From Solirubrobacterales bacterium (GTDB lineage: Bacteria > Actinomycetota > Thermoleophilia > Solirubrobacterales > Solirubrobacteraceae), in NCBI GenBank assembly GCA_015655225.1, contig JAATFK010000323.1, positions 1-10,382 on the forward strand: a DNA stretch of 10,382 nt, given 5' to 3'. Below the pieces are notes generated by a model, which had not been told where the DNA came from, ran no database searches, and worked only from the letters and a program-made list of their open reading frames with translations. Positions 1,390 through 10,382 of this stretch are shown here, piece by piece. Both the position numbers and the translations under genes were made by a program. Position 1 is the stretch's first letter. Every line of letters begins with the position of its first letter.

Positions 1390-3321
1390 TCAGGGCGTCG
1401 CGCGGGCCGCCGCGAGGGCCTGCCGCGAGAAGGCCGCGAGCTTGAGCGAGCCCCAGCCGGTCACCGGGTCGTAGCTTCTCGACGAGGAGAAGGCACCGAG
1501 CGGCGTCCCGCCGCCGGCGTCGCTCGGCAGGATGACGCCGACGTCGTTGGAGCCGCTCGTCACGTCGTTCAGCACCGCGTGGGCGTGGGGCCCGCGCGCG
1601 AGCGAATAGATCAGCGGGTTCGCGAAGCCGAGCGGCCGCTGCCCGTGCAGGCGCGCCTCCTGGTCGGCGAGCGCGATCCCGGCCGCCGTCAGCGGGGTCG
1701 CGGCGCTCGTGCCGCCGAACGTCTGCCAGCCGCCGCTGGGCAGCGTCGCGCTGTCGCAGTCGGCCGCGGTGCAGAAGATCGCGTAGCCGGGGAGGAGGTC
1801 GGCCAGCGCGGCGACGTCCGGCACCGCGCGCGTCACGTCGTTTCCGGTGCTCGGCGTCAGGCCCGGGCCGCGCTGCCACCAGGGCCGGTCGAAGATCACG
1901 CTGAGGCCGCCGCCGGTCGCGCCCAGGGTCGCGGGAGCGTCGTTCCAGGCGACCTCGCTCGCGATCGTGTTGCGCGCGGTCAGCTGGAGGTTGGTGCCGC
2001 CGACGGCGGTCACCGACGGCAGCGCCGCCGGCACGTTGACCGCCAGCAGCGGGGGCTTCGCCTGCGGGCTGGCGCACGCCGCGCTGCCGCTGTCGCCGGA
2101 GGAGGCGAGCACGCTGATGCCGGCGCCGGCGGCGACCTCGAAGACGTCCTCCAGCGCGCGGATGCCGATCACCTCGCCGGTCAGCCCGGGCTCGCAGATC
2201 CCGAGCGAGATGGAGATCACGTTCGGACGGGTGCGCGGGTTCGCGATCGCGGCGGCGGCGGCGCCGAGCAGGCCGGCCGCCGTGCCGGGACTGGCGTAGA
2301 CGTGGATGCCCCGCAGGCCAGGGGCGGCGGCGCTCAGCACCTCGAGGTCGAGCGTCGTCTCGTCGCCGGCGGCGGGGAAGCGCCGCAGCCCGACCGCATG
2401 GGCCTGGATCGGCGGGACCCGCACGCCGAAGCAGCGGCCGAAGGTCGCGACGTCGCTCGGGTTGAAGCCGTCGGTCTCCAGCACCGCGACGCGCTCACCC
2501 TCGCCCCGCAGCCCGCGGGCGTGCAGGGCGGCCTGACCGTAGGCGGTCAGGTACTGGTTCGGCGTGAAGCCGCTGAAGCCCGCGACGGTCGCGTTGCGCC
2601 CGGCGGCACAGCCGGCCGGCGTGCCGGTGCGGACGAAGCCAGAGCCGATCAGCGCTCTGAGTCTCGCTCGCTGGGCGGGGGAGATGTCGGCGCCGGAGGC
2701 GCCGCCCGTGCCCGCGGCGGCGCCGGCGCCGTAGGCGCGCGGGCGCGGCGAGGTCGAGGGTGGCGGCGCCGCGGCGGGCGTGCGCGACAGCAGCGCGACG
2801 CCGGTCACCGACCCGCGCAGCCCGGCCGGAACCGGCAGCGCGGCACCGGCGCTGGCCGCGCGGGCCACGCCGCCGCCAAGCGCCCGTCCGACCTGCGCCG
2901 CCGTCCCGCTCGCGACCACGTACGTGCCGGTCGGGCCGACCGTCGCGTGGAGCCGGCGCGCGCCGAGCCAGGCGGTCACGGCGCGCTTCGACCGCGGCGT
3001 CGCCCCGTAGCGCGCGGCGAGCCGCTCGACCGTCGCGTAGTGACGGTAGTCGGGTGACGACGGGTCGGAGACCGAGCGGACGAACCGCTGCAGCCCGGAC
3101 TGCGCCCGCAGCGCCAGCAGCACCTGCTCGGTCGCGCCGCGGTCGAGGCTCTCGGCCCGGGTCGGCGCGGCCGCGCCGGCGGCGGTCGGAAGGAGCCCGG
3201 CCACCGTGGCGCCCGCCGCGACCAGCACGGCGACGCGGCGGACCGAGCGGGCGCGCCGGGGCGCGGCGCGCCGGGTCGCGATGGGGTGGGACGGGGGTGT
3301 CTGCGAGCGAGGGGCGAACAT
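1390..3321 (-). CDS. Secreted S53 family serine-carboxyl peptidase (sedolisin / pro-kumamolisin type)
   Basis: This 643-residue preproprotein begins at ATG 3321-3319. The N-terminus is Arg-rich, followed by a hydrophobic signal segment (about residues 29-50, ending PTAAGA), so export is predicted. Residues about 55-180 form the activation propeptide (QRFVRSVSDPSSPDYRHY is typical). A Pro/Ala/Gly-rich linker (180-212) leads to the catalytic domain. The sedolisin residues are all present: Glu321 and Asp325 in DETTLDLE, oxyanion Asp410 in SSGDSGS, and nucleophile Ser539 in GGTSAATP. The C-terminal NDVTSG...YDPVTGWGS (586-624) matches the calcium site of the family. These enzymes are endopeptidases usually most active at acid pH, matured by self-cleavage. 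A TTG in frame at 3354 would add 11 residues, but ATG is preferred because TAGCCT sits 8 nt before it. The gene stands between its own promoter and the DUF4389 leader. Family certain; substrate unknown. Confidence 0.93.
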   Translation of the reverse strand: MFAPRSQTPPSHPIATRRAAPRRARSVRRVAVLVAAGATVAGLLPTAAGAAAPTRAESLDRGATEQVLLALRAQSGLQRFVRSVSDPSSPDYRHYATVERLAARYGATPRSKRAVTAWLGARRLHATVGPTGTYVVASGTAAQVGRALGGGVARAASAGAALPVPAGLRGSVTGVALLSRTPAAAPPPSTSPRPRAYGAGAAAGTGGASGADISPAQRARLRALIGSGFVRTGTPAGCAAGRNATVAGFSGFTPNQYLTAYGQAALHARGLRGEGERVAVLETDGFNPSDVATFGRCFGVRVPPIQAHAVGLRRFPAAGDETTLDLEVLSAAAPGLRGIHVYASPGTAAGLLGAAAAAIANPRTRPNVISISLGICEPGLTGEVIGIRALEDVFEVAAGAGISVLASSGDSGSAACASPQAKPPLLAVNVPAALPSVTAVGGTNLQLTARNTIASEVAWNDAPATLGATGGGLSVIFDRPWWQRGPGLTPSTGNDVTRAVPDVAALADLLPGYAIFCTAADCDSATLPSGGWQTFGGTSAATPLTAAGIALADQEARLHGQRPLGFANPLIYSLARGPHAHAVLNDVTSGSNDVGVILPSDAGGGTPLGAFSSSRSYDPVTGWGSLKLAAFSRQALAAARATP

Positions 3322-3329
3322 GGCCGGCG

Positions 3330-3335
3330 AGGCTA
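3330..3335 (-). promoter_or_regulatory. Probable -10 box of a leaderless promoter for the S53 peptidase gene
   Basis: On the minus strand TAGCCT is followed by 8 nt (CGCCGGCC) and then ATG. There is no Shine-Dalgarno-like sequence in that gap. TANNNT at 7-10 nt before a start codon is the usual layout of leaderless transcripts in actinobacteria. The same hexamer with the same 8-nt gap precedes the response regulator at 8445. No convincing -35 was found. Confidence 0.6.
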
Positions 3336-3432
3336 TCCGCGCGATGCGGGGCAACGTGCCACGACCGGCCGACTGCCGAATTTGCTCAGCTTTCGCTCCC
3401 GAAAACGGTACGGCGATTGTCGGTTCGCGCGT

Positions 3433-3846
3433 TCAGACGGCTGCCGGCGGCGTCGCGAGGCCGGCGTCGCACAGCGCGCCGTCGCCGCTCACGAGTCGCA
3501 GCCCGCGCGACTCGGCGACCGCCGCGTAGGCGGCGTCGTACAGCGTCAGCTCGCGCACGTCGGCCAGCTCCAGGGCGCGCCGGCGCTCGGCGGGCGACGG
3601 GACCAGCGGGGGCGCCCCCGCGATCGTGAGGACCGCGGCGACGAGCCCCTCGGCGTCGTCGGCGTCGCGGCGCCAGTCGCGCAGGACGACGTTGCCGACC
3701 TCGTAGACGGTCAGGTCGAGCAGCCGCAGCTCCAGCTCGCGCCGCCGCCGGCGCTCCACGAGCACCGTGGCGGCGGCGTGGTCCGGCTCGCGCTCGGCGC
3801 GAGCCCAGGCGAGCCAGACCGAGCTGTCGAGCAGCAGGACGCTCAC
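3433..3846 (-). CDS. PIN-domain (VapC-like) nuclease, no antitoxin visible
   Basis: This 137-residue protein has the four acidic residues of a PIN active site in the usual order and spacing: Asp7 in LLLDSSVWL, Glu49 in TVYEVGNV, Asp104 in TLYDAAYAAVAE and Asp122 in LVSGDGAL. The family are Mg-dependent ribonucleases, most often VapC toxins that cleave tRNA or rRNA. The start is GTG 3846-3844, 18 nt after the stop of the 55-residue membrane protein gene. No clear ribosome site is seen, so coupling to the upstream gene is plausible. A VapB-type antitoxin (roughly 70-80 residues, DNA-binding) would be expected directly upstream or overlapping, and none is present. It therefore appears as the last gene of the glycan-type run. 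It could be an orphan toxin, a toxin whose partner lies elsewhere, or a PIN protein with another RNA role. Confidence 0.85.
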   Translation of the reverse strand: MSVLLLDSSVWLAWARAEREPDHAAATVLVERRRRRELELRLLDLTVYEVGNVVLRDWRRDADDAEGLVAAVLTIAGAPPLVPSPAERRRALELADVRELTLYDAAYAAVAESRGLRLVSGDGALCDAGLATPPAAV

Positions 3847-3864: not shown

Positions 3865-4032
3865 CTAGAGGAGCAGCTCGCGCGCGACGACGATCGCGGC
3901 GATCAGCAGGACGATCCCGATTTCCCACAGCAGCAGCTGCCTCTCCGAGCGCCGCTCGCGCCGCAGGTCGAGCTCGGCCGCGGTCGGGGGTGCCGCCTCG
4001 GGCGGCGCCGGAAGGGACGGCGGCCGCTTCAC
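3865..4032 (-). CDS. 55-residue proline-rich single-span membrane protein coupled to the glycosyltransferase
   Basis: The GTG start (4032-4030) overlaps the glycosyltransferase TGA (4031-4029) in a GTGA junction, with a GGGGGA-like site 6 nt before it. The stop is TAG 3867-3865. The protein has a Pro/Ala-rich N-terminus (residues 4-18), a charged stretch with ELDLRRERRSER (20-31) and a C-terminal hydrophobic span of about 17 residues (33-49: LLLWEIGIVLLIAAIVV) ending RELLL. The positive charges before the span suggest a cytoplasmic N-terminus. I do not recognise a family. Its placement is like that of small membrane subunits (PgaD, IcaD) that accompany processive glycosyltransferases, but those are larger, so the analogy is positional only. 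The overlap, the membrane span and a composition unlike random translation support it as a real gene. Confidence 0.7.
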   Translation of the reverse strand: MKRPPSLPAPPEAAPPTAAELDLRRERRSERQLLLWEIGIVLLIAAIVVARELLL

Positions 4033-5510
4033 GCGAGGTCCCCCACGGTGCCGGTCTTCTCCGTCTTCTCCCAGCGCATCTCCTTGCCCTGCAGCTCCTT
4101 CACGTAGGCGGCCGTCTGGACCGCGCAGAGCAGCGGGCCGAAGCCGACGAGGTAGAGCAGCGGCGCGACGAGGAAGCGGAGGTGACCGGACTTGTCGAGC
4201 TGCTTGATCAGCCAGGCGGCCAGCATCGAGGCCGACAGCCACACGTAGGTGAACAGCTGGATCGCCTGCGAGAGGCCCGCGTGCGGGTCGATCCCGAGGT
4301 CGCGGAGGCCGTCGGCCGCGTAGCGGTCGAAGAGCGGCGGATAGACGGCGTAGGCGATGATCAGGAGGCTGATCGCGCCCGGGAACAGCAGCCCCTCGCG
4401 CCACACGCGCCGTGCCGAGTCGCGGTCGAGCGCGAACGCCGACAGCGTGACGAACAGGTACGTCACGAGCGTGATCGCCCAGAGCGCCTTGAAGACCTCC
4501 TGCGCGAGCGTGCGGTCGACGAAGTAGAGCGCCAGCAGGCTCGCCGACGAGGTGAGCATGAAGACCGGCATCAGGAAGACCGAGAACCAGATCAGGCCGA
4601 AGCCGATGCCGCCGAGCGGGCCGCTCTCGCGCCGCAGCCAGACGTGCCGGAAGCGCAGCGTCACCTGGACGTTGCCGCGTCCCCAGCGGACCCGCTGCTT
4701 CCACAGCCCGAGCACGTCGCCGGGCTCCTCGGCCCAGACGATTGCGTGCGGCTCGAAGACGACCCGCATCCCCGCGAGCTGGACGGTGATCGTCGTGACG
4801 GTGTCCTCCGCCAGCGTCTCGGTGTTGATCGCGCCGCCGATCGCCTCGAGGCTCTCGCGTCGCAGCAGCTGCGCCCCGCCCGCCAGGCACGCCTGCGCGC
4901 CGAGCACGTTCTGCGCCCGCCGCGCGCCCGCCTGCGCGGTCACGTACTCGTAGCCGACGAACCGCTTCATCCAGTTGGCGGGCCGGCTGCCCTCCTTGAT
5001 GTAGCCCATCACGGCGCCGATCTCGGGGTCGGCGAAGTTGCGCGTCATGCGGCGCAGCGAGTCAGTCGTGAAGATCACGTCGGCGTCGATCACGAGCACC
5101 GCCTCATACCAGCCCTCGGCCTGGATCACCCGCAGCCCGTGGTTGATCGTGTGCGCCTTGCCCTCGCCGCCCTGCTCGCGTCGCAGGTGGAAGACGAGGC
5201 CGGGATGCTGCGCGGCCTTCGCGCGCAGGAGCGCCGGCGTCTCGTCCGTGCTGGCGTCGTCGACGACGTAGATCCGCAGGCGGTCGTGCGGGTATTCGAG
5301 TCTCGCCAGCTGGTCGACGGTGCGCTCGATCACGAGCGCCTCGTTCCAGGCCGGGATCACGATCGCGACGTTCGGATAGAACTCGCCCGCCGGCGTGCAC
5401 CGCGAGCGGAAGCCGTGCAGGCCGGCGAGCGCGAACTGGTAGCAGCCGGCGATCAGCGGGAGCGTGCCGGTCAGCACCAGCGCGATCAGGATCGCGGCGA
5501 GGAGGTGCAC
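4029..5510 (-). CDS. Processive family-2 glycosyltransferase (poly-beta-GlcNAc / hyaluronan / cellulose synthase-like membrane protein)
   Basis: This 493-residue membrane enzyme has an N-terminal span (about 3-25), a cytosolic GT-A domain (about 46-290), and some five hydrophobic segments at roughly 303-330, 342-362, 374-392, 416-435 and 446-468. All motifs of the inverting processive GT2 family are visible: VIPAWNE (51-57), Asp84-Asp85 in VVDDASTD, GEGKAHTINHG (115-125), the metal-binding Asp142-x-Asp144 in VIDADVI, the base in AEDT (Asp236), and Q272RVRW276, the acceptor-binding Q-(Q/R)-x-R-W motif. The family uses UDP-sugars to extend and often translocate a beta-linked polymer. The substrate cannot be read, but PgaC/IcaA-type poly-GlcNAc synthases share this size and layout, and a PIG-L deacetylase is in the same run. 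The start is GTG 5510, 12 nt after the PHP gene stop, without a clear ribosome site. It overlaps the 55-residue gene by 4 nt. Confidence 0.92.
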   Translation of the reverse strand: MHLLAAILIALVLTGTLPLIAGCYQFALAGLHGFRSRCTPAGEFYPNVAIVIPAWNEALVIERTVDQLARLEYPHDRLRIYVVDDASTDETPALLRAKAAQHPGLVFHLRREQGGEGKAHTINHGLRVIQAEGWYEAVLVIDADVIFTTDSLRRMTRNFADPEIGAVMGYIKEGSRPANWMKRFVGYEYVTAQAGARRAQNVLGAQACLAGGAQLLRRESLEAIGGAINTETLAEDTVTTITVQLAGMRVVFEPHAIVWAEEPGDVLGLWKQRVRWGRGNVQVTLRFRHVWLRRESGPLGGIGFGLIWFSVFLMPVFMLTSSASLLALYFVDRTLAQEVFKALWAITLVTYLFVTLSAFALDRDSARRVWREGLLFPGAISLLIIAYAVYPPLFDRYAADGLRDLGIDPHAGLSQAIQLFTYVWLSASMLAAWLIKQLDKSGHLRFLVAPLLYLVGFGPLLCAVQTAAYVKELQGKEMRWEKTEKTGTVGDLA

Positions 5511-5522
5511 GGCGGCGTCGGC

Positions 5523-6257
5523 TCAGCGCGCCGCCGGCGGCGCCAGATCGGCGAGCGCGTCGAGCACCGCGCGACCGTGCTGGTAGCGCCCGATCGTGTC
5601 GCTGCGGTGGCTGTCGGTGCTCAGCAGCAGCGGGACGCCGCGCTCCAGGAACGGTCGCAGGGCCGCCGCCGAGGGGGTCGCGTAGCGCTCGTTGACCTCG
5701 ATCCGGTTGCCGGTCGCGGCGGTCGCCTCGGCCAGCTCGGCGAGCAGCTCGGGAGCGACGTCCTCCGCCCGCAGGTCGAGCTTCGGCAGCACGCTGAAGA
5801 GGTGCGCGATCACGATCGGGACGTCGTGGCGGCGCAGCGCGTTCGCGGTCGACGTGAGCAGCGAGGCTAGCACCTCGTCGGCCGTCAGGGTGCCGTCGGC
5901 GATCGCGTCGCGGACCTCGCGCGGGTGGTGCGGGCCGTCGGCGAGCGGGACCTGGTGGTCGGCGGCGTAGACGACCTCGACGCCGTCGACCCACGGCGGC
6001 AGGTCGAGATGGCCGGCGCTGTCGAGCAGCTTCGCCTCGATCCCGCAGTGCAGCGTCAGCGCCGTCGTCGCGCGCACGCGCCGGACCTCCGCCACGTACG
6101 CCGGCAGCCAGTCGGTGTCGGCGCGCACGTGGTCGATGCAGGTCAGCTCGCGCAACCCTCGCGCCTCCGCCTCCCGGACGTTCTCCTCGATCGTGCCGGT
6201 GCCGTCGGAGAAGGTCGAGTGGGCGTGCATGTCCTGGGTCGGCGCCCACGTGCTCAT
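5523..6257 (-). CDS. PHP-domain metal-dependent phosphoesterase
   Basis: This 244-residue protein starts at ATG 6257-6255, which overlaps the ATP-grasp stop (ATGA junction) and has GGGAG 6 nt upstream. The metal ligands of a PHP fold are all in place: His11 and His13 in DMHAHSTFSDG (with Asp18), Asp42-His43 in CIDHVR, Glu74 in CGIEAKLLD, His101 in AADHQV, His152 in VIAHLF, and Asp215/His217 near the end in STDSHRSD. The family are TIM-like-barrel phosphoesterases (histidinol phosphatase, nucleotide and sugar phosphatases, and the CpsB/YwqE tyrosine phosphatases of capsule loci). No extra domain is present, so it is a stand-alone enzyme, and its length is within the family range. The context suggests a phosphorylated sugar intermediate or a regulatory phosphoprotein as substrate, but the sequence does not decide between them. 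Confidence 0.9.
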   Translation of the reverse strand: MSTWAPTQDMHAHSTFSDGTGTIEENVREAEARGLRELTCIDHVRADTDWLPAYVAEVRRVRATTALTLHCGIEAKLLDSAGHLDLPPWVDGVEVVYAADHQVPLADGPHHPREVRDAIADGTLTADEVLASLLTSTANALRRHDVPIVIAHLFSVLPKLDLRAEDVAPELLAELAEATAATGNRIEVNERYATPSAAALRPFLERGVPLLLSTDSHRSDTIGRYQHGRAVLDALADLAPPAAR

Positions 6258-7261
6258 GTGACGCTCCCGCCGCTCTGCTCGACCAGCGCCTCGATCTCGG
6301 CGAAGGGGAAGAAGCGCTCCTCGAAGACGCGCACCATCGCGACCTCCTCGAACCGCAGCGGCTCGTCGCCGAGCGGGACGCCGAGCGCCTCGCCGACCGC
6401 GAGCGACGGCATGTCGATGCCGGCGGCGACCGTCAGCGGCATCGTGCCGGGGAAGCGCGGGTTGACCTCCAGCAGCGCGGGGACGCCGAACGCGTCCTCC
6501 TTCACCTGGATGTTCGCGACCGTCGTCAGGTCGATCAGTCTCGCGACCTCGCGACCGAAGTGCTCGAGGCTCGCGTCGTGGACGGTGCGGCCCGTGATCG
6601 CGATGCCGGAGTCGACTCTCAGCCGCTCGCGCGGGACGACCGCGAGCACGTCGCCGGCGGCGTTCGCGAGCGTGTCGAGCGACCACTCGGCGCCGGGCAG
6701 GTGCTCCTGCACGAGCAGCGAGCCGTCGCGCTCCAGCGCCTCCAGCTGGTCGCGGTGCGTCAGCAGCCGGATCCCGCGCGAGCCGCTGCCGCTGCGCGGC
6801 TTGACGATCGCCGGCAGCTCGGGCGACTCGGGGTCGAACTCCTCGTCGACGAGCCAGGTCGCGGGGACCCGCACGACGTCGCGGCAGCGCTCGAACAGCA
6901 GCCACTTGTCGAGGCAGACGGCGAGCGTGTCCTGGCTCGCGAGCACGAGCTGGATGCCGGCCAGCTCGAAGCGGCGGCGCTCCAACGCGAGCGGCAGCAG
7001 CTCGCTGTCGACCGTCGGCACGAGCACGTCGATCCGCTCGCGCTCGCAGAGGGCGAAGATCCGGTCGGTGAAGTCGGCGTCGTCGCCGCGCGGCAGGATC
7101 GCGCGGCGCGCCTCGGGGACGAGGTAGAGCCCCGCCGCGTAGGGATCGACGTCGCCCGCGAAGACGGTCAGCGCGTCGCTCTCGATCGCGCGCATGACGG
7201 AGATCCCGGACGGGCCTCCCGCTCCGGTGACGAGGACGCGGCCCGCTCGTTGCACTGGCAT
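6254..7261 (-). CDS. ATP-grasp ligase, carbamoyl-phosphate-synthase large-subunit-like
   Basis: This 335-residue protein starts at ATG 7261-7259, which shares its A with the upstream TGA (TGATG), preceded by GGAGG with a 7-nt gap. A Rossmann-like pre-ATP-grasp domain opens with VLVTGAGGPSGISVMRAI (9-26). The ATP-grasp core includes CLDKW (116-120), Lys154 and the flexible glycine loop in VKPRSGSGSRGI (153-164), the VQEHLPGAEWSLD strand (184-196) and the metal-binding LLEVNPRFPG (263-272, with Glu265, Asn267 and Arg269). Such CarB-like stand-alone ATP-grasp proteins activate a carboxylate as acyl-phosphate and join it to an amine or other nucleophile; many occur in surface-polysaccharide loci. 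Directly after a PIG-L deacetylase, it could acylate the freed amine, but that is inference. The substrate is unknown. Confidence 0.9.
   Translation of the reverse strand: MPVQRAGRVLVTGAGGPSGISVMRAIESDALTVFAGDVDPYAAGLYLVPEARRAILPRGDDADFTDRIFALCERERIDVLVPTVDSELLPLALERRRFELAGIQLVLASQDTLAVCLDKWLLFERCRDVVRVPATWLVDEEFDPESPELPAIVKPRSGSGSRGIRLLTHRDQLEALERDGSLLVQEHLPGAEWSLDTLANAAGDVLAVVPRERLRVDSGIAITGRTVHDASLEHFGREVARLIDLTTVANIQVKEDAFGVPALLEVNPRFPGTMPLTVAAGIDMPSLAVGEALGVPLGDEPLRFEEVAMVRVFEERFFPFAEIEALVEQSGGSVT
6264..6268 (-). promoter_or_regulatory. Ribosome binding site of the PHP gene, inside the ATP-grasp gene
   Basis: The minus strand reads GGGAGCGTCACATGA: GGGAG, 6 nt, then ATG at 6257 overlapping the upstream TGA. 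It supports the short ATGA-coupled start of the PHP gene. Confidence 0.65.
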
Positions 7262-8346
7262 CAGACAGCCTCCGACATGGTGGGGATCGTGACCTTCGAC
7301 GGCTCGGCTGCCGGCTGCGTCGCGGTGGTCGAGACGTCGCTCTCGCGAATGATCTCCAACGGCTCGACGTAGCGCGACTGCGTGAAGCGGGCCCAGTAGC
7401 GCGCGGTCGCGCGCATCAGCTCCGGGTCGAGGTAGTGGCGGACGGCGGTCTGCGAGGCGTAGGCGTCGATCACGTCGAGCTTGCGCTCGACGAAGTCGTC
7501 GATCGCGACGAAGCGCGTGGGCAGGAACTCGACCGTCGTGGACGGCGCCTGGTAGCAGTAGATGCGAGGGATCCCGCGCGCCGCGACGAGCGTCGCGCTG
7601 TGCACGCCGCGGTGGTCCTGGTGCACGTCGCGGGCGGTGTGCGTGTAGATCGTGCCGGGGCCGATCTCGTCGATCACGCCCTTGATCGTCGCGATCGTGC
7701 TGCCGCCCTCGCTCACGCTCCTGTCCATCAGGTCGGCGTGGACGAGCCGGGCGCCGAGCAGCTCGGCCGCGCGGCGCGACTCGGCCGCGCGCTCGGCCGG
7801 CTCGCCGCCCGCCTCGCCGCCGGACAGCGTCAGGATCGTCACGTCGTGGCCGGCCGCGACGTGACGCAGCAGCAGCCCGCCGACGCCGATCTCGACGTCG
7901 TCGGGGTGGGCGCCGATCGCGAGCACGATCTCGCGGTCGGCGGCGCGCCGCTCGCGCGTGAGGGCGATCAGCTCCTCCACCTTCGTGACGAGCTGTCCCG
8001 GCTCGACCGGCTTCGTCACGTAGTCGTCGGCGCCCGCGCGGATCGCCTCGACGGCATAGTCGAAGCTCGCGTGGCCGGAGAGGATCAGCGTCGCGACGTG
8101 CGGCTGCGCCGCCTTCGCGGCGCGCACGAGGTCGAGCCCGCTCATGCCCGGCAGCTCGACGTCGGCGAGCACGGCGTCCCAGGGACGCGTCGCGAGCAGG
8201 CGCTCGGCCTCCTCGCCGTCCGGCGTCCAGTGCACGTCGCCGAGCGTCGTCAGCAAGGCGGTGACGACGCTCGCCAGGAGGTCGTCGTTCTCGACCAGCA
8301 GCACGGCCGGGCGCCGCGCGCTGCCCCCTGTGTTCGCATGGGCCAT
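7261..8346 (-). CDS. Fusion protein: response-regulator receiver (REC) domain + PIG-L/LmbE zinc N-deacetylase
   Basis: This 361-residue protein has two domains. Residues about 13-130 are a CheY-like receiver: VLLVEN at 15-20 (Glu19 and Asn20 at the acidic pair), phospho-acceptor Asp62 in LADVELPGMSG, switch Ser90 in LILSGHAS and Lys112 in YVTKPV. Residues about 139-335 are a PIG-L deacetylase with AHPDD (His147, catalytic Asp149, Asp150) and HQDH (242-245, zinc ligand His245). PIG-L enzymes remove acetyl groups from N-acetyl-sugars (GlcNAc-PI, MshB in mycothiol, BshB in bacillithiol). No DNA-binding domain or signal peptide is present, so this is a cytoplasmic enzyme with a phosphorylation switch. 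The tail (336-361) is Thr/Pro/Ala-rich and probably disordered. It heads the six-gene minus-strand run. ATG 8346 is chosen because translation upstream of it looks non-coding; GTG 8364 or 8439 cannot be excluded, and no good ribosome site is seen. Confidence 0.9.
   Translation of the reverse strand: MAHANTGGSARRPAVLLVENDDLLASVVTALLTTLGDVHWTPDGEEAERLLATRPWDAVLADVELPGMSGLDLVRAAKAAQPHVATLILSGHASFDYAVEAIRAGADDYVTKPVEPGQLVTKVEELIALTRERRAADREIVLAIGAHPDDVEIGVGGLLLRHVAAGHDVTILTLSGGEAGGEPAERAAESRRAAELLGARLVHADLMDRSVSEGGSTIATIKGVIDEIGPGTIYTHTARDVHQDHRGVHSATLVAARGIPRIYCYQAPSTTVEFLPTRFVAIDDFVERKLDVIDAYASQTAVRHYLDPELMRATARYWARFTQSRYVEPLEIIRESDVSTTATQPAAEPSKVTIPTMSEAV
7269..7273 (-). promoter_or_regulatory. 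Ribosome binding site of the ATP-grasp gene, inside the REC–PIG-L gene
   Basis: GGAGG on the minus strand lies 7 nt before ATG 7261 and inside the last codons of the REC–PIG-L gene. Together with the TGATG junction it marks translational coupling of the two genes. Confidence 0.75.
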
Positions 8347-8444
8347 GCCCTGAGTGATCGGCACGAACGGGAGCGGGGCGCACCCGCCGTTTCGATCGTG
8401 GCGCGTGTGCGGGTTCCGGGGGCATGGCGATAGCCTCACCAGCG
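8347..8444. promoter_or_regulatory. Divergent promoter region between the six-gene run and the two-component system
   Basis: These 98 bp separate the start of the REC–PIG-L gene (minus strand) from the start of the response regulator (plus strand). Both transcription units must be initiated here or within the gene ends. The plus-strand -10 box at 8431-8436 is visible. For the minus-strand unit I could not identify a box or a ribosome site with confidence. A regulator bound here could control both directions. Confidence 0.55.
8431..8436 (+). promoter_or_regulatory. Probable -10 box of a leaderless promoter for the response regulator gene
   Basis: GATAGCCT is followed by CACCAGCG (8 nt) and ATG at 8445, with no Shine-Dalgarno sequence between them. 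The box, the preceding GA and the 8-nt gap match those before the S53 peptidase gene. This fixes the start at 8445 rather than at the in-frame ATG 8424, which lies before the box. Confidence 0.6.
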
Positions 8445-9143
8445 ATGACAGACGCCTCGCTGGAGATCCTCGTCGTCGACGACGAGTCGGAGCTGCGGGA
8501 GATGCTCTCGCGTCTCTTCACGCGCCAGGGCCACCGCGTCACGGCGGTCGCGGACGGGAGCGCGGCCGTGGACCGCGCCAGCAGCGACCACTTCGACATC
8601 GTGCTGCTCGACGTCGCGCTCGGCGGCGGGCCGGACGGCTACGACGTCTGCCGCACCCTGCGCGAGCGCCGCAACGTCGTCCCGATCATCATGCTGACGG
8701 CGCTCGACAGCGAGGCCGACGCGGTCCTCGGGCTCGAGGCCGGCGCCGACGACTACGTGACGAAGCCGTTCGGCCCGGCGGAGCTGCGCAGCCGCATCCG
8801 CGCGGTGCTGCGGCGCGCGGGCGCCCGTGCGCTCGGCGCGGAGATCCTCAACATCGGCCCGGTCGTGCTCGACCGCGCGCAGCGCGAGGTGACCGCCCAC
8901 GGGCAGCCGGTGACGCTGACGTTCTCCGAGTTCGAGGTGCTGCAGGCGCTGATGAGCCAGCCCGGCCGCGTCTTCGACCGCCAGGAGCTGATGCGCGCGA
9001 TCTGGGGTGACAGCGCCTACCGCGATCCGCGCGGGATCGACGTCCACGTCCGGCACCTGCGCGAGAAGCTGGAGGACAAGCCGGAGCATCCGCGGCTGCT
9101 CCTGACCGTGCGCGGGACCGGATACCGGATCGCGCCGACGTAG
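8445..9143 (+). CDS. OmpR/PhoB-family response regulator
   Basis: This 232-residue transcription factor has a receiver domain (about 6-120) and a winged-helix DNA-binding domain (about 135-231). Receiver residues are Asp12-Asp13 in LVVDDE, phospho-acceptor Asp56 in VLLDVAL, Thr85 in IIMLTAL and Lys107 in YVTKPF. The output domain shows the OmpR-type features: LTFSEFEVLQALMSQPGRVF, the ELMRAIWG segment, the recognition-helix stretch GIDVHVRHLREKLE and the closing hairpin VRGTGYRI. The loop after Asp56 reads VALGGGPDG instead of the usual (M/L)LPGMDG, with one extra residue and no Pro. The partner histidine kinase begins 10 nt downstream. The divergent position opposite the REC–PIG-L run makes that run a likely target. 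Family is certain; target genes are inferred. Confidence 0.95.
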   Translation: MTDASLEILVVDDESELREMLSRLFTRQGHRVTAVADGSAAVDRASSDHFDIVLLDVALGGGPDGYDVCRTLRERRNVVPIIMLTALDSEADAVLGLEAGADDYVTKPFGPAELRSRIRAVLRRAGARALGAEILNIGPVVLDRAQREVTAHGQPVTLTFSEFEVLQALMSQPGRVFDRQELMRAIWGDSAYRDPRGIDVHVRHLREKLEDKPEHPRLLLTVRGTGYRIAPT

Positions 9144-9146
9144 GAT
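9141..9146 (+). promoter_or_regulatory. Possible -10 box of a second, leaderless promoter for the histidine kinase
   Basis: TAGGAT begins with the TAG stop codon of the response regulator and is followed by CGACTCC (7 nt) and GTG at 9154. No ribosome site lies in the 10-nt gap between the genes. The layout is like the two TAGCCT boxes in this window, but the match could be incidental because the stop codon itself supplies the TA. Confidence 0.4.
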
Positions 9147-9153
9147 CGACTCC

Positions 9154-10382
9154 GTGCGCTTCTTCCTCGGCCTTCGCGGGCGGCTGATGCTGGCGCTGCT
9201 GGCGGTCACGGTCCTGGCGCTCGGCGGCGCGGCGCTCGCCCTGCTGGTCCCGCTCGACAAGCGGCTGCGCGACGACGCGCTCGCGAGCCTCAGCTCGGAT
9301 GCCAACACCGCGCGTCAGGCGGTCGCGCAGATCGACGCCGTCGACGTCTACCCGCGCTCGCCCGCGCTGGGACGGGTCGGCCGCTCGCTGCGGCGCGTCG
9401 GCGCCGACGTCGACATCTACGCGCCCGACGGGACGCCGCTCACGGGCGTCGATCCGGAGCACGCCTTGCCGCCGGCGCTGCTGACGCTCAAGAGCAACCG
9501 CCAGCGGCGGCGGATCATCGGGGGCGGCGCCAACGAGGAGGCGAGCGTCGTGCTGCGCGCGCGCACCCGCGGCGTGCGGCAGGCGGACGGCTCGACCAGA
9601 CCGGGGCTCCTGCTGACGCTCGCGGTGACGCGCTCGCTGAAGGAGGCGCACGCCGCCCGCGCCGTCTTCGTGACGGGCTTCGAGCGCGCCTCGGCGCTCA
9701 CGCTGCTGATCGCGCTCGTGCTCGGCTTCGGGTTCTCGACGCGCCTCGCGCGCCGCACGCGGGCGCTGCGCAACGCCGCGCTGCGCGTCGCGGCCGAGGG
9801 GCCGGGCGTGCCGCCGCCGGACGTCGCCGGACGCGACGAGATCGGCGATCTGGCGCGCGCGTTCGCGACGATGCAGGAGCGGCTGCGGGCACAGGAGGAC
9901 GCGCGCAAGGCGTTCGTCGCGACCGCCTCCCACGAGCTGCGCACGCCGATCGCGGCGCTCCAGCTGCGGCTCGGGCTGCTGAGCGAGGACCTCGCCGCCG
10001 ACGGCTCCGACGTCGCCGACGCGCGCGAGCAGGTCGCCCACGCGGAGGCCCAGACGATCCGCCTCGCCCGCCTCGCGAGCGACCTGCTCGACCTCAGCCG
10101 GCTCGACGCGACCGTCGACCTGCGCAGCGAGCGGGTCGAGCTGGGCTCGCTCTGCCACGTCACCGTCGCCGAGTTCGACCCGGTTCCGGGACCACCGGTG
10201 CACCTCGACGACCACGACGGCGGGACGGCGCTCGCCGACCCCGGCAAGGTCTCGCAGATCGTCCGCATCCTGGTCGAGAACGCGCGCGGCTTCTCGCCGC
10301 CGGACGGGACGGTGCGGGTGCTCGTGCGCGGCGCCTCGATCGCGGTCGAGGACGACGGGCCGGGCGTCGACCCCGCCGAGGC
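9154..10382 (+). CDS. Membrane sensor histidine kinase, partner of the upstream regulator (3' end outside window)
   Basis: The frame opens at GTG 9154, 10 nt after the regulator stop, and stays open to the window end (409 codons). Segments in order: membrane span 1 (about 11-33, LMLALLAVTVLALGG onward), an extracytoplasmic sensor region of about 140 residues (34-175) of no recognised fold, membrane span 2 (about 178-196), a HAMP domain (about 195-248, with RDEIGDLARAFATM), a HisKA dimerisation domain with phospho-acceptor His260 in FVATASHELRTPIAAL, and the start of the ATP-binding domain with the N box (Asn376 in ILVENARGFSPP) and the G1 box (DDGPG, 400-404). The rest of the ATPase domain, expected to be some 50 residues, is cut off. 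It should phosphorylate the regulator at 8445 and, by proximity, perhaps the REC domain of the PIG-L fusion. The sensed signal is unknown. Confidence 0.93.
   Translation, partial: MRFFLGLRGRLMLALLAVTVLALGGAALALLVPLDKRLRDDALASLSSDANTARQAVAQIDAVDVYPRSPALGRVGRSLRRVGADVDIYAPDGTPLTGVDPEHALPPALLTLKSNRQRRRIIGGGANEEASVVLRARTRGVRQADGSTRPGLLLTLAVTRSLKEAHAARAVFVTGFERASALTLLIALVLGFGFSTRLARRTRALRNAALRVAAEGPGVPPPDVAGRDEIGDLARAFATMQERLRAQEDARKAFVATASHELRTPIAALQLRLGLLSEDLAADGSDVADAREQVAHAEAQTIRLARLASDLLDLSRLDATVDLRSERVELGSLCHVTVAEFDPVPGPPVHLDDHDGGTALADPGKVSQIVRILVENARGFSPPDGTVRVLVRGASIAVEDDGPGVDPAE

Follow-up and report, generated by a model that had tools for sequence, protein, structure and literature searches.

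Receiver domains mostly drive transcription or second-messenger enzymes. In response regulators of the PleD, RpfG and CheB types the receiver controls an enzyme, the outputs being cyclic-di-GMP enzymes or a methylesterase. BshB, MshB and the diacetylchitobiose deacetylases, judged by the lengths of the structure targets and from general knowledge, have the PIG-L fold without a receiver. PorX, the response regulator of type IX secretion, carries a receiver and a zinc-dependent phosphodiesterase output in the account given by PMC11320123.

The stretch of DNA analysed in this work (10 382 nucleotides of a Solirubrobacterales contig, hereafter the window) encodes a receiver joined to a PIG-L domain (REC-PIG-L). 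A sequence-only reading had proposed that phosphorylation of the receiver gates the deacetylase. In the interpretation favoured here, to which a probability of about two in three is assigned, REC-PIG-L is a response regulator with a PIG-L output, likely a sugar de-N-acetylase, which heads a glycan operon and is controlled by a kinase.

Results

The fusion gene and its protein

The REC-PIG-L gene occupies 7261..8346 on the minus strand as a single unbroken reading frame (ATG at 8346, stop codon at 7261-7263) and encodes 361 aa; a public prediction for the same protein (P0001) has 367 aa, its N-terminus being six residues longer. Pfam matched residues 15-123 to Response_reg (E 1.3e-22) and residues 142-255 to PIG-L (E 1.1e-22), and the in-frame fusion that had been claimed is thus borne out by one frame with two Pfam domains. 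Pfam and an AF2 model (mean pLDDT 93.4, pTM 0.85) together delimit a receiver that includes helix 5 (residues 14-136; 7939..8307, minus strand) and a PIG-L deacetylase-fold domain (residues 138-335; 7342..7935, minus strand). The statement that there is almost no linker was correct, because helix 5 (116-136) stops at residue 136 and the first PIG-L strand begins at residue 140 in the model. Among the best 50 matches of each of two structure comparisons, none was a PDB chain that combines the two domains.

The fusion is genuine. A search of 5.8 billion proteins, in which 7997 were scored, gave 2561 homologues at E 1e-3, and all 120 homologues listed of these 2561 (the window's own protein and 119 besides) possessed both Pfam domains, which rules out a sequencing or assembly artefact, a concern raised with the original claim. 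Among the homologues listed in this search, the names given were domain names.

Both PIG-L motifs were found complete, as the sequence-only reading had stated, with AHPDD at residues 146-150 and HQDH at 242-245. Among 80 relatives HPDD (H147-D150; 7897..7908, minus strand), which we take to be the zinc site and base, was invariant, as were H242, D244 and H245 of the HQDH motif (7612..7623, minus strand). The receiver half diverged faster than the PIG-L half (mean pairwise identity 41 % versus 57 %), which weighs against the favoured interpretation. Its phospho-acceptor Asp62 (8161..8163, minus strand) was conserved in 80/80 relatives and in 119/119 proteins of the close-relative alignment, and the phospho-site is therefore not degenerate in the orthologues, degeneracy there having been named beforehand as a refutation of the proposal. 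The switch residue Ser90 (8077..8079, minus strand) was Ser or Thr in 80/80, and Lys112 (8011..8013, minus strand) was Lys in 75/80 and Arg in 5/80.

Distribution of the fusion

A genome scan gave at least 547 encoding stretches that matched the fusion, of which the best 80 were kept; these 80 loci were selected by similarity to the fused query and the sample therefore favours fused copies. The fusion was present in at least six phyla (Actinomycetota, Pseudomonadota, Bacteroidota, Rhodothermota, Gemmatimonadota and Myxococcota). It behaves as an accessory gene, a full-length match being found in four of 41 genomes (own genome included), three of them from the window's genus. At E 1e-40, matches were found in at least eight of 250 genomes of the class and at least seven of 396 genomes of the phylum (own genome included in both), four of the latter seven being PIG-L only; eight and five candidates, respectively, were scored per genome, and these frequencies are lower bounds.

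Stand-alone PIG-L relatives also exist (120 listed of 650 have PF02585 only). In a quick tree of the PIG-L domain (64 fused and 27 stand-alone sequences, with 17 near-duplicate fused loci removed and 22 of the 120 stand-alone relatives picked by hand), a single change between fused and stand-alone forms fitted (SH-aLRT 78), with single origin and direction both unproven since the tree is unrooted and contains some long rows (YaiS and L134). Separate receiver and PIG-L genes were rejected as the norm, the stand-alone forms sitting across one branch from the fused ones. One ORF (L078:7674-9461) contained two stretches matching the fusion query (98-241 and 241-586) and possibly encodes a double receiver ahead of PIG-L.

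The operon and its surroundings

REC-PIG-L heads a four-gene operon, all on the minus strand. It is followed by an ATP-grasp ligase (6254..7261; Pfam), whose start codon overlaps the REC-PIG-L stop codon, by a PHP-domain protein, likely a phosphoesterase (5523..6257; Pfam), which overlaps the ATP-grasp stop codon in the same way and, after a gap of 12 bases, by a membrane GT2 glycosyltransferase (4029..5510; Pfam). The GT2 protein has five hydrophobic stretches by hydropathy and a QRVRW motif, presumably the sign of a processive synthase; its score against the PgaC/IcaA poly-GlcNAc synthase equivalog TIGR03937 was 137.5 bits, below the cut-off of 422.3. None of the curated NCBIfam cut-offs was reached in the best 25 of 94 matches for the fusion or in all 24 for GT2.

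The neighbourhood is conserved with the fusion, and the suggestion that the architecture be sought across genomes is answered by its recurrence in at least six phyla. ATP-grasp, PHP and GT2 genes were found near 78, 62 and 69, respectively, of 93 fused loci other than the window's own; these neighbours and the TPR proteins were called with profiles or single queries built from these loci, and divergent neighbours may therefore be missed, more so beside stand-alone genes. A TPR protein, whose C-terminal half resembles an outer-membrane barrel by eye, was present near 13 of the 93 (confirmed with Pfam in L055, L075 and L003), and no match to the TPR-protein profile was found near the window's REC-PIG-L gene. 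In four gammaproteobacterial loci (L036, L055, L065 and L068) the TPR gene lies inside the operon, and the PHP queries had no match in these loci.

In three kinase-paired Microbacteriaceae loci (L048, L069 and L074), a carbon-nitrogen hydrolase lies directly upstream of REC-PIG-L (e.g. L074:6973-7794; called with Pfam on L074 and by clustering on L048 and L069), and no ATP-grasp gene was found nearby. Elsewhere in the window, positions 1390-3354 (minus strand) encode a protease with a Pro-kumamolisin activation domain and a subtilase-family match, presumably of the sedolisin type, and positions 3433-3846 (minus strand) encode a PIN-domain protein.

Association with histidine kinases

A histidine kinase was found within 6.5 kb of 69 of the 93 fused loci, compared with none of 13 stand-alone PIG-L loci. 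The 93 loci represent 91 places (L011 = L139 and L052 = L164, each fetched twice), kinship among loci means that the counts are not independent and that the Fisher values calculated from them cannot be taken as probabilities, and two of the 69 kinase calls were weak (L006, 33 bits; L031, 45 bits). Among loci with full flanks the figures were 56 of 67 fused and none of 10 stand-alone; among the fused loci from the whole-genome search (15 in total, G164 not being counted and one other being the L002 place), a kinase was near eight of the 13 counted. In 12 genomes totalling 48.3 Mb, 181 HisKA matches were counted; at this density approximately 0.05 kinases would be expected per span of this size.

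Kinases of the fused loci had in part gone into the kinase profile, and Pfam HisKA served as an independent check. The complete HisKA lists for 12 stand-alone loci contained either no match on the contig of the locus or none closer than 27 kb, three of these contigs being short (13-21 kb); for the thirteenth locus (G586) the nearest was at 46 kb among the 10 of 14 matches listed. Genome G677, which has both forms, had a HisKA match approximately 1 kb from the fused copy and none within 27 kb of the stand-alone copy. The stand-alone loci nonetheless had similar partners (ATP-grasp in eight, GT2 in nine and PHP in one of 13), and L131 had the full set of PIG-L, ATP-grasp, PHP and GT2 without a receiver. 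With kinases usually near the fused loci and none by stand-alone genes in a similar operon, the receiver has the look of a regulatory element that was added to a glycan operon.

The kinases were placed in several ways (window included: downstream distal in 36, downstream adjacent in nine, upstream on the same strand in 14 and divergent in 11), which does not amount to a single inherited layout. They were also of several kinds: PAS kinases neighbour REC-PIG-L in L014, L005, L048, L069 and L074, hybrid kinases with Hpt in L004 and L115, and in Gammaproteobacteria a hybrid kinase is divergent from the REC-PIG-L operon. In L033, L036, L065 and L068 a haem-NO-binding (H-NOX) type protein is encoded between the divergent hybrid kinase and REC-PIG-L (called with Pfam on the L036 member, L036:1676-2230, and by BLAST clustering in the other three).

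Asn20 and altered receivers

In receivers such as CheY, an acidic pair (Asp12 and Asp13) binds the metal. The corresponding pair in the window's receiver is Glu19-Asn20, where position 20 (codon 8287..8289, minus strand) is equated by us with CheY Asp13. Of 119 aligned close relatives one was truncated at this position, and all 118 that could be read had Asp there, as did 72/80 of the wider relatives. The receiver had been described as complete; this stands for Asp62, Ser90 and Lys112, whereas the metal-binding Asp is replaced by Asn. The association with kinases and the conserved pocket support phosphorylation in the family, but Asn20 in the acidic pocket makes phosphorylation of the window's own copy uncertain.

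The strongest rival to control by phosphorylation, a serious possibility though short of probable, is that the receiver is a pseudo-receiver in this lineage or copy and that the enzyme is constitutive or under another signal. Asn20 speaks for it, as does the finding that the operons of L001, L002 and L113, three close fused loci, have no kinase next to them, and altered receivers do occur elsewhere in the family. Position 20 is occupied by Ser, Gly or Val in six alphaproteobacterial loci (L059, L071, L075, L076, L077 and L080), five of which also have Arg for Lys112, and no kinase was found nearby in any, two of the six having short flanks. In all, seven of nine altered-pocket receivers were without a kinase neighbour, whilst of the 52 receivers among the 80 loci that have both a canonical pocket and full flanks, 47 had a kinase nearby, the exceptions being L001, L002, L011, L012 and L070. 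At the level of the family this pattern speaks for control by phosphorylation. The fusion L163:6177-7745 has a receiver half that is barely recognizable (6.6 bits, and also by eye) in an otherwise complete operon with no kinase found nearby; it is likely a natural pseudo-receiver, and was left out of both the fused and stand-alone groups owing to its degenerate receiver N-terminal half.

Against this stand the intact Asp62, Ser90 and Lys112 of the window's own receiver and the canonical pocket kept by its close relatives. The substitution itself has natural parallels, as L055 and L058 share Asn20 yet adjoin a hybrid kinase (called by Pfam in L055 and by profile in L058), so that pocket state and kinase presence are imperfectly matched. 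Moreover, Asn is one base away from Asp and the assembly is a draft of 729 contigs, so a sequence error is possible.

Length of the tether

The tether from Lys112 to His147 comprised 28 or 30-36 residues across the family. Since all these lengths occur, a fixed helical register, and with it rigid (heptad-phased) coupling through the helix, is unlikely family-wide, and both docking and a less rigid allostery would be compatible with this variation. The receiver might then be a docking module that, when phosphorylated, recruits the deacetylase to the membrane GT2 or other operon enzymes without gating it. The varied tether fits such a role better than a rigid allosteric helix, and ATP-grasp, GT2 and PHP are frequent partners, but an ATP-grasp gene is lacking in the vicinity of 15 of 94 fused loci, and docking in place of gating is considered unlikely.

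Identity of the PIG-L half

The PIG-L half falls within PF02585 by the Pfam gathering score, by its HPDD and HxDH motifs and by fold. Within the best 50 matches per structure comparison, the best were BshB, TT1542 and diacetylchitobiose deacetylases; the GalB hydratase (5cgz), a non-deacetylase member of the PIG-L fold, and LnmX were also present. The latter two are what favours another zinc hydrolase or hydratase (GalB-like, LnmX-like or BshB-like of a thiol pathway) in place of a sugar deacetylase. This was judged improbable in view of the top matches and the conserved catalytic motifs, of the GT2 glycan synthase near 69 of 93 fused loci and, for BshB, of a score of 77.4 bits against the BshB1 equivalog TIGR04001, below its cut-off of 182.5. 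The PIG-L half is thus an LmbE/BshB-fold zinc hydrolase, most likely a sugar de-N-acetylase.

The adjacent OmpR-kinase pair

An OmpR-type regulator and a histidine kinase (8424-10382, plus strand; the kinase runs off the contig) are divergent from the operon, 78 bp from the fusion gene, and the sequence-only reading had suggested an assay of phosphotransfer from the neighbouring kinase. A role of this kinase as the partner was not supported at this locus. G001 (87 and 75 % identity) and G006 (82 and 58 %) both encode adjoining orthologues of the pair, and the fusion search found a full-length fusion in neither; in the fused relatives G002 and G005 the only homologues of the pair are more distant and lie elsewhere; and beside the operon of the close fused loci L001, L002 and L113 neither pair gene, nor any kinase, was found. 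With the pair present in sister genomes where no fusion was found and absent at the three nearest fused loci examined, it is not the evident partner; it was rejected as the default one, and the most fitting reading is that it forms a separate system belonging to the genus. That the pair is nevertheless the cognate system and phosphorylates both regulators is therefore improbable, in spite of its divergent position close to the fusion and of a divergent OmpR-type regulator in that place in Blastococcus loci as well.

Discussion

In the favoured reading, a kinase-controlled response regulator with a PIG-L output, a histidine kinase, which in many relatives is encoded in or near the operon, would phosphorylate Asp62. 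The receiver, tethered by helix 5, would then change how the deacetylase, a cytoplasmic enzyme, is reached or assembled. Deacetylation of an N-acetylated sugar or glycan precursor inside the cell would expose an amine, to which the ATP-grasp enzyme may couple a carboxylate, and GT2 may polymerize or export the product. In which direction and by what mode the enzyme would be gated, what its substrate would be and how these steps would be ordered are proposals of ours.

More tentatively, and with rather less confidence than even odds would express, these proteins might form a distinct class of two-component output, in which a glycan operon gained its deacetylase receiver once and varied kinases were plugged in later. 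Cells could thereby switch, post-translationally, how a surface polysaccharide is charged or acylated, and at the H-NOX loci NO might be a direct switch of glycan deacetylation. Control of glycan chemistry by NO at those loci is possible on the gene arrangement, and the H-NOX neighbourhood would supply a defined input for the REC-PIG-L system. If the favoured reading is true, the conserved receiver on a sugar de-N-acetylase would be a direct phosphorylation switch of polysaccharide chemistry. As canonical fused copies with operon kinases, altered-receiver copies and stand-alone enzymes in a similar operon all occur, the value of the receiver is testable by natural contrast.

No report of a REC-PIG-L protein was found among the matches listed in titles and abstracts of the open-licence PMC literature (subscription papers being outside this scope); REC-PIG-L would thus be a response regulator of known type with an output not described in the open-licence literature found. 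A PleD receiver aligns with the REC-PIG-L model in the structure comparison. PorX resembles REC-PIG-L in that a receiver is joined to a zinc hydrolase, but its output, on the description in PMC11320123, belongs to the alkaline phosphatase superfamily and not to PIG-L, and it serves a different system.

On gene content, the YaiS/YaiP/YaiO cluster of E. coli (NC_000913.3 380069-384616) offers a further comparison. YaiS is a stand-alone PIG-L protein with 33 % identity to the PIG-L half (E 1e-25) and 135.7 bits against the family profile, and YaiP is a GT2 protein related to the window's GT2 (25 %, E 9e-11), both E values coming from an eight-protein comparison; both proteins are annotated as putative. 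The Yai cluster has no receiver, ATP-grasp or PHP among its annotated neighbours, unlike the window. It contains YaiO, annotated as an outer membrane protein. No TPR-profile match lies near the window's gene; YaiO itself was not matched by that profile, which was made from eight TPR proteins encoded at proteobacterial and Rhodothermal REC-PIG-L loci, and gave chance scores only against eight operon proteins. Judged by these sequence comparisons, yaiS-yaiP is the nearest named gene set among those compared: its PIG-L and GT2 genes lie in one cluster, as do those of the window, where ATP-grasp and PHP genes stand between them.
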